Below the pieces are notes generated by a model. That model was not told the DNA's origin, ran no database searches, and saw only the letters and a list, made by a program, of their open reading frames with translations. The translations under genes were made by a program, and so were the position numbers. A stretch of 64,000 bases of DNA from a bacterium (GTDB lineage Bacteria; Bacillota; Clostridia; Lachnospirales; Lachnospiraceae). Positions within the stretch are counted from its first letter, which is position 1; every line of letters begins with the position of its first letter. The DNA lies in the NCBI GenBank assembly GCA_030524675.1, contig JAUNGE010000014.1, positions 1 to 64,000 on the forward strand, given 5' to 3'. This document shows, piece by piece, positions 33,891 through 62,749 of the stretch.

Positions 33891-33920
33891 GATGTTGGGG
33901 TCAAAAGGTATTTTGACCCC
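33891..33920 (+). repeat. Palindromic element, hairpin form (copy 2)
   Basis: GATGTTG plus the perfect GGGGTCAAAA-GGTA-TTTTGACCCC hairpin, identical over 30 bases to copy 1, but without the TGATACC portion. It lies between the LicC-like gene (stop at 33938) and the flippase gene. Confidence 0.88.
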
Positions 33921-62212: not shown

Positions 62213-62243
62213 ATCATAAGGGATGACGTAAGGTAAGTGTCAA
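62213..62243 (-). promoter_or_regulatory. MerR-type promoter of the MerR-methyltransferase gene
   Basis: TTGACA (62238-62243) and TATGAT (62213-62218) are 19 bases apart on the minus strand, with ACCTTACGTCA in the spacer. It differs from the rmlC promoter at four positions of 31. Transcription would start ~20 bases before the gene and could continue into rmlABD. Confidence 0.87.
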
Positions 62244-62273
62244 GTATTTTTCTGATATTTTTTCTAATATTTT

Positions 62274-62481
62274 GATGATATCAGGGTCAAATAGACATAA
62301 AATCCGATGCAAGCTTGCTTGCAGGAGGATTTTTGTCCAGTTGACCCGCCAAAACACCGAAAAGTAGCCATTTTTCGTAGAAAAATGAGCGGATTTGAGG
62401 TGTTTTAGAATTGCGTGAGTGCGCAGCACGGAGCAATTCGTGATATCAGAGGTCAAATTTTATATTTGACCTCAACATCTT
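62274..62481 (-). repeat. 208-bp multi-hairpin element, tandem copy A (copy 6)
   Basis: Four consecutive structures: a nested hairpin 62284-62347 (GGGTCAA/TTGACCC, inner AAAATCC/GGATTTT and GCAAGC/GCTTGC); 62351-62406 (AAAACACC/GGTGTTTT, inner ATTTTTC-GTA-GAAAAAT); 62408-62439 (GAATTGC/GCAATTC, inner GTGC-GCA-GCAC); and 62449-62473 (GAGGTCAAAT/ATTTGACCTC). The last one is the hairpin shared with the short family members. No convincing protein is encoded. Confidence 0.9.
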
Positions 62482-62689
62482 GATGATATCAGGGTCAAAT
62501 AGACATAAAATCCGATGCAAGCTTGCTTGCAGGAGGATTTTTGTCCAGTTGACCCGCCAAAACACCGAAAAGTAGCCATTTTTCGTAGAAAAATGAGCGG
62601 ATTTGAGGTGTTTTAGAATTGCGTGAGTGCGCAGCACGGAGCAATTCGTGATATCAGAGGTCAAATTTTATATTTGACCTCAACATCTT
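62482..62689 (-). repeat. 208-bp multi-hairpin element, tandem copy B
   Basis: By eye identical to copy A over all 208 bases. A third partial unit (GATGATATCAGGGTCAAA, 62690-62707) follows, where the prfA terminator begins. The perfect identity implies a recent duplication. Confidence 0.92.
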
Positions 62690-62704
62690 GATGATATCAG
62701 GGTC

Positions 62705-62749
62705 AAAAAAACTTCAGAAATGATTCTCACCCTGAACCATCCCTGAAGT
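62705..62749 (-). terminator. Terminator of prfA
   Basis: ACTTCAG and CTGAAGT form the stem on the minus strand and are followed by six T residues. It begins inside the last partial repeat unit, so the repeat abuts the terminator. Confidence 0.85.

Follow-up and report, generated by a model that had tools for sequence, protein, structure and literature searches.

The 208-bp unit that is repeated in tandem between prfA and the MerR gene in the window (the whole stretch of DNA analysed here, 64,000 nucleotides of contig JAUNGE010000014.1 from the Lachnospiraceae assembly GCA_030524675.1) is very probably a non-autonomous, MITE-like transposon whose junction fold is conserved and which depends for its movement on a recombinase acting in trans and generating 7-bp duplications. 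We base this reading on the multiple copies of the element, its fixed ends, the 7-bp target duplications, an empty site, an insertion within a gene, the recurrence of tandems, the covariation of the fold and the non-coding character of the sequence. Both copies in the window match, end to end, the Rfam family RF01699 (Clostridiales-1 RNA) in the Infernal search (62276-62448 and 62484-62656, plus strand, 118 bits each, gathering score 48). The family was described in 2010 from Clostridiales and the human gut; Table 1 of that paper lists it as "probably" an RNA and probably not cis-regulatory, with no function, and the words "mobile" and "transposable" are absent from its main text (Weinberg et al. 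2010, PMC2864571). Rfam files it as type Gene; sRNA. Besides PMC2864571 no further papers discussing Clostridiales-1 were found in the open literature, and none on the mobility of the motif among open-library papers. As an RNA motif the family was known before; what appears to be new, within the searched literature, is that it moves, where its ends lie and that it duplicates its target.

That an orphan Rfam RNA family bears the hallmarks of a transposable element, and is found across an order of abundant gut bacteria at up to ~95 copies per genome, implies that RF01699 matches should not be read as sRNA genes by default. The element also accounts for tandem arrays and for assembly breaks at repeats in these genomes. 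It raises the question of what enzyme generates the 7-bp duplications and what requires the interior fold to stay.

The tandem unit in the window and its fold

TRF reported a tandem repeat at 62272-62707 (period 208, 2.1 copies, 100% match), and the repeat search delimited copies at 62266-62473 and 62474-62681 with 99% identity, the differences being confined to the first bases of the unit; from 62272 onward the copies are 100% identical. The duplication with a third start, as claimed in the preliminary description, is therefore present in the assembly, and the 18 bases given there for the third start are seen as GATGATATCAGGGTCAAA, part of 26 bases (62682-62707) shared with copy 2. With the ends set from other copies that carry exact target duplications, the element itself is 203 bp long (GATATC...AACATC) and occupies 62277..62479 (copy 1) and, in identical form, 62485..62687 (copy 2), followed at 62693..62707 by a truncated third copy, the first 15 nt of the element (GATATCAGGGTCAAA), all on the plus strand, which opposes prfA and the MerR gene. 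The T preceding copy 1 also pairs within the closing stem. The left flank is TTTTGAT (62270..62276), of which TTGAT recurs after each copy (62480-62484 and 62688-62692); these repeats represent a shortened target duplication or a repeat spacer. The window element thus shows a 5-bp TTGAT repeat only, without a clean 7-bp duplication, which counts against our explanation. Minus-strand ORFs of 72-80 aa within the unit gave no family above the cut-off in the family search, in agreement with the earlier statement that no protein-coding signal is evident.

The unit folds far more strongly than its dinucleotide shuffles, on both strands and with RNA as well as DNA parameters (z = -9.7 for plus-strand RNA, -10.5 for minus-strand RNA and -10.6 for DNA). 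The four helices seen at the outset as consecutive hairpins do form, with a different arrangement: one closing stem (TGATATCA with TGATATCA; 62276-62283 with 62441-62448 in copy 1, and 5' strand 62484..62491 with 62649-62656 in copy 2) encloses three arms in a four-way junction, and the fourth, perfect hairpin lies separately outside, at the 3' side. On the plus strand, arm 1 (62284-62347 in copy 1, 62492..62555 in copy 2) has an apical CAAGCTTGCTTG-type palindrome and corresponds to covariation helix 1; arm 2 (62351-62406 and 62559..62614) bears in most family members conserved tandem G.A mismatches (ATGAGnAAG / CGGATTnCGAAT), which have diverged in the window copies (CCGAAAAG); arm 3 (62408-62439 and 62616..62647), recovered by both folding and covariation, is GAATTGCGTGAG...CGGAGCAATTC. 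The 3' hairpin (62449-62473 and 62657..62681; GAGGTCAAAT-loop-ATTTGACCTC) lies beyond the Rfam model and bears most of the 3' terminal inverted repeat.

The tandem arrangement recurs elsewhere. Adjacent copies occur at many places in the relative G378, whose genome is a single contig, as well as elsewhere, and four loci of G378 (L205, L207, L208, L211) show a single copy, then the target duplication, then the first 16-25 nt of another copy, with the same layout at L198 extending over ~50 nt of the following copy. That the tandem copy in the window could be an assembly artefact of a repeated element, a concern raised in the preliminary description, is suggested by the draft state of the genome (127 contigs), several contigs of which end within copies of the element. 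We regard this as quite improbable, since the many adjacent copies and the element-duplication-truncated-start pattern of the complete genome G378 make tandem arrays with truncated third copies a property of the family, and assemblers usually collapse tandem repeats and seldom invent them. The window copies are identical, unlike most others in the genome, which is consistent with a local duplication of recent date. We infer that the tandem arises by slippage between direct repeats (the duplication plus the element start): after insertion, replication or recombination would slip between them, helped by the hairpins, and a slip halting in the first arm would leave a third start of 15-25 nt. In other genomes, several elements adjoin partial tandem duplications of one arm or an array of four copies, as at L169, L180, L130 and L189 (G378:C1:2403040-2403674).

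The window contains four more remnants of the same element, at 33891, 46579, 53521 and 24806; the last is an internally deleted copy with an 8-bp matching flank (AATTTCAT) and the other three are lone 3' hairpin ends. Between the MerR-methyltransferase gene and the element lies a promoter-like sequence, TTGACA - 19 bp - TATGAT (62213-62243, minus strand); a 19-bp spacer is typical of MerR-controlled promoters. In the sister species G001 the element is absent from the prfA-MerR gap, which holds (L294, upstream of 3001; L221, 1694-2121) an apparent transposase remnant bounded by GCAGACTGTAGACAAAG inverted repeats. The remnant looks to be of the IS1182 type, so that each of the two species would have received a different mobile element in this gap.

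Ends, target duplications and distribution of the family

When the copies were aligned with their flanks, the common subfamily proved to run from GATACC to AACATC and to have imperfect terminal inverted repeats (5' GATACCAGGGTCAAAAGGT, 3' complement GATGTTGGGGTCAAAAGGT; 15/19 nt identical, 12/16 in the window copy). Among 73 copies with both ends, from the own genome (G000) and G378, exact 7-bp flanking repeats were found at 46, including both window copies, which match trivially as the unit is tandem; re-pairing of left and right flanks gave a mean of 1.2 and a maximum of 5, with the few boundary shifts allowed for the real pairs favouring them slightly. The duplicated target is AT-rich (consensus WTnnnAT). 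In other genomes 15/33 loci have an exact 7-mer repeat, where displaced windows predict 1.9; in most of these loci it lies at the same ACATC boundary. In G028 one copy interrupts an IS200 tnpA gene and is flanked by the duplication TACTTAT; when the flanks are joined, the Y1 frame reads through the site again, and further stops follow downstream in the gene. For the copy at C21:9562 the sister species G001 has an uninterrupted empty site with a single copy of the target. Target duplications of 7 bp and isolated insertions need a transposition event. The conclusion that the Clostridiales-1 family is a mobile element is well supported.

The whole-genome search for the unit, envisaged in the preliminary description, found it multicopy and hence not unique to this spot. 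The own genome contains 95 RF01699 matches (68 over the cut-off, as counted from the table), while blastn with the 208-bp unit alone gave 45, and 93 RF01699 matches were found in G378. In the order-level sample 111/392 genomes have matches, with counts strongly uneven among relatives; in the phylum-level sample 4/398 have them, namely the own genome and three of the same family. Such a patchy, high-copy presence has the character of a mobile element. The unit has no match in the plasmids searched; among phage records, unannotated faecal contigs gave 6 matches of weak to moderate strength, including one that matches RF01699 in full, and in viral contigs the 3' end had 3 exact matches and the 5' end had none.

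Several variants of the element were seen. The B subfamily (TTTACTATGAAAGTC...GACTTTCATA plus a hairpin ending GTTTA, with TATGAAAGTC ends; examples G000:C22:46050-46215, C101:18446-18819 and C49:100916-101391) shares the core and differs in its ends, has a constant TTAC before the 5' end and lacks a clear target duplication, which also counts against our explanation; its tandem copies join as GTTTACTATGAAAG. A long form (G000:C12:1682-1906, C37:94459-94683, C109:55548-55772; G378:C1:3261493-3261696) has perfect target duplications and contains, between arms 2 and 3, an extra module of a hairpin (GGCGCC...GGCGCC in the own genome, GGTGCT...AGCACC in G378) and then a conserved GACCGGAGCGGAGCGnAGA; of the 25 copies of the module in its own-genome version, 24 are located within these long-form elements. 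Mini-elements of 28-36 bp with perfect 7-bp duplications were also observed (G000:C5:39410 and C5:3114, 36 bp; C37:22787, 28 bp). We do not take them as proof that the core is dispensable for movement, because they match a deletion between two GGGTCAAAA repeats of a full copy.

Selection on the fold and possible signals of transcription

A covariance model from copies in relatives, proposed with the preliminary description as a check, was built from 42 diverse members and gave 113 matches, 109 of them distinct. RNAalifold predicted 27 pairs for the 42 members, 26 of which changed on both sides; in the alignment to the model, which is fitted to the structure and so leans to it, with a shuffle control that leaves relatedness in, both-side changes occur in 27/27 helix pairs (597 such cells, 157 in shuffles) and 96.5% of cells are paired as against 74.1%. 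In slid versions of the alignment pairing drops to 28-47%. The 3' hairpin also shows compensating differences between genomes. In arm 2, two adjacent G.A mismatches (columns 131-132 and 201-202), conserved in >90%, adjoin the freely covarying pair 134-199; adjacent conserved G.A mismatches beside a covarying pair are the signature of a tandem sheared G.A motif. In helix cells of the element G-U makes up 1.9% and A-C 1.1%, compared with 7.6% and 0% in tRNAs of the same loci, a comparison biased by the fact that ARAGORN accepts G-U and not A-C. The near-symmetry of G-U and A-C suggests maintenance of the pairs at the DNA level or through a palindrome-correcting process, and not solely as RNA. 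Taken together, the covariation, the few wobble pairs and the conserved tandem G.A mismatches argue for selection on a folded single strand, be it ssDNA, a cruciform or RNA.

The same data bear on the idea that the family is primarily a gene for a functional small RNA, or a 5' leader, copies of which spread as passengers of duplications. The RF01699 match, the strong covariation and the conserved G.A mismatches speak for it, and so do the flanks in part: a promoter-like (sigma-70-like) site whose -10 box lies 6-20 nt ahead of the element was found in 23/85 five-prime flanks (own genome and G378 pooled), with a chance level of 5.0 +- 2.0 in shuffles retaining the last 8 bases, whereas three-prime flanks (2/44) do not differ from shuffles. 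To judge from these promoter-like sites, transcription of some copies probably begins at their first base. The pooled flanks and, in G378, a biased orientation relative to the downstream gene (46/64) favour insertion at transcription starts as a general rule; the own genome, where orientation is unbiased (18/32), does not, so that we retain it only as a tendency. This lack of bias in the own genome is also at odds with an RNA gene; no terminator-like site was found after the element, the ratio of G-U to A-C is unusual for selection at the RNA level alone, and the 7-bp duplications and isolated insertions require transposition. An RNA gene carried along by duplications is hence an unlikely origin of the copies.

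Captured promoters would also suit retrotransposition, in which an RNA starting at nucleotide 1 is copied by a reverse transcriptase acting in trans, as a bacterial SINE. The promoter-proximal 5' ends of a subset, the conserved folded strand and the reverse transcriptase genes in many of the genomes are compatible with it. The duplication length is, however, fixed at 7 bp, 5'-truncated copies appear by eye to lack matching flanks, the target sequence itself separates tandem copies, and RVT_1 (PF00078) is unmatched in the element-rich G402, G184 and G009; we therefore assign this route a very low probability and prefer a transposon moved by a recombinase.

The proposed mobilising enzyme and comparison with known systems

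Searches for an autonomous partner revealed no sequence shared upstream of the lone 3' ends among the regions examined in the own genome, and no end pairs 280-7000 bp apart with matching duplications in the 1.55 Mb (44%) of G378 searched, a part that includes all its listed elements. The genes between neighbouring elements are, by eye, ordinary metabolic or regulatory ones, and the only IS repeated in the examined part is an IS605 with TnpB. None of three candidate families tracks the distribution of the element: the Y1 transposase (PF01797) is common in the group, with 3 matches in the own genome, but unmatched in the element-rich G003, G360 and G184; DDE_Tnp_1 (PF01609) is unmatched in both G000 and G378; and RVT_1 is present in most element-rich genomes but unmatched in the three named above. 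From the fixed duplication length alone, we infer a DDE-type enzyme.

Movement as a REP/IS200-like single-strand element by a Y1 (HUH) transposase would agree with the dense imperfect hairpins at the ends, the frequency of Y1 transposases in the group and the constant TTAC before the 5' end of the B subfamily. REP elements and HUH transposition leave no target duplication, and the 7-bp duplications of subfamily A strongly disfavour this mechanism for that subfamily; moreover, three element-rich genomes lack a Y1 match and one copy is itself inserted inside a Y1 gene. We consider it the least probable of the mechanisms discussed here. The preliminary guess of a structured RNA or a MITE/REP-like substrate accordingly finds support in the structured core, an Rfam RNA with overwhelming covariation, and in mobility with 7-bp duplications, and finds none for its REP/RAYT version.

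For the MITE-like element, we propose that a recombinase acting in trans would cut and join the terminal inverted repeats and cleave AT-rich target sites (WTnnnAT) with a 7-bp stagger, the repair of which would leave the 7-bp target duplication. The interior four-way junction (Clostridiales-1 RNA), kept by selection, would probably be required, in the form of a folded DNA strand or cruciform, for the element to move, and might possibly also work as RNA. An order-wide conserved interior structure is unusual in a simple deletion-derived MITE and counts against our explanation. It is conceivable, though we would not expect it, that an undescribed transposition system has the junction itself as its substrate or intermediate; its recombinase would read the folded DNA junction (with its sheared G.A pairs) together with the terminal repeats and make the 7-bp duplications. 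Were this so, what has been taken for a non-coding RNA in Clostridiales-1 would be the fold of a transposon, and not the remnant of a known IS family.

We know of few bacterial MITEs with selection on a non-Watson-Crick fold across genera. The duplication made by bcr1 of Bacillus cereus is 5 bp. The bcr1-bcr3 repeats of that species (PMC3446304) resemble the present element in being intergenic and multicopy, with a MITE-like structure, and often part of transcripts; they belong to another taxon, no sequence relation is claimed, and the 7-bp duplication and the order-wide conserved four-way junction set the present element apart. REP/REPIN sequences with RAYT (PMC3116915) are likewise palindromic, intergenic and present in high copy, and differ in the points on target duplication and Y1 distribution made above. 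The Rfam family RF01699 has the same core and comes from the same taxon group (Clostridiales, human gut), but its model ends at the closing stem and covers neither the 3' hairpin nor the terminal inverted repeats, and both the target duplication of 7 bp and the mobility are missing from the Rfam entry. The element also resembles prokaryotic MITEs in general (Correia/NEMIS, ERIC, RUP; PMC10969869), which are <500 bp long, with terminal inverted repeats, target duplications, AT-rich intergenic sites and stable hairpins; set against the features listed there, the element is 203 bp long and has no transposase gene, its terminal inverted repeats fall within the range of about 4-30 bp, and it is flanked by a target duplication of 7 bp in the family and 5 bp at the window copy. 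Known MITEs usually share their ends with an autonomous IS, whereas none was found here in the parts searched. On our reading the window contains two tandem copies of a MITE-like mobile element that has Clostridiales-1 as its interior.
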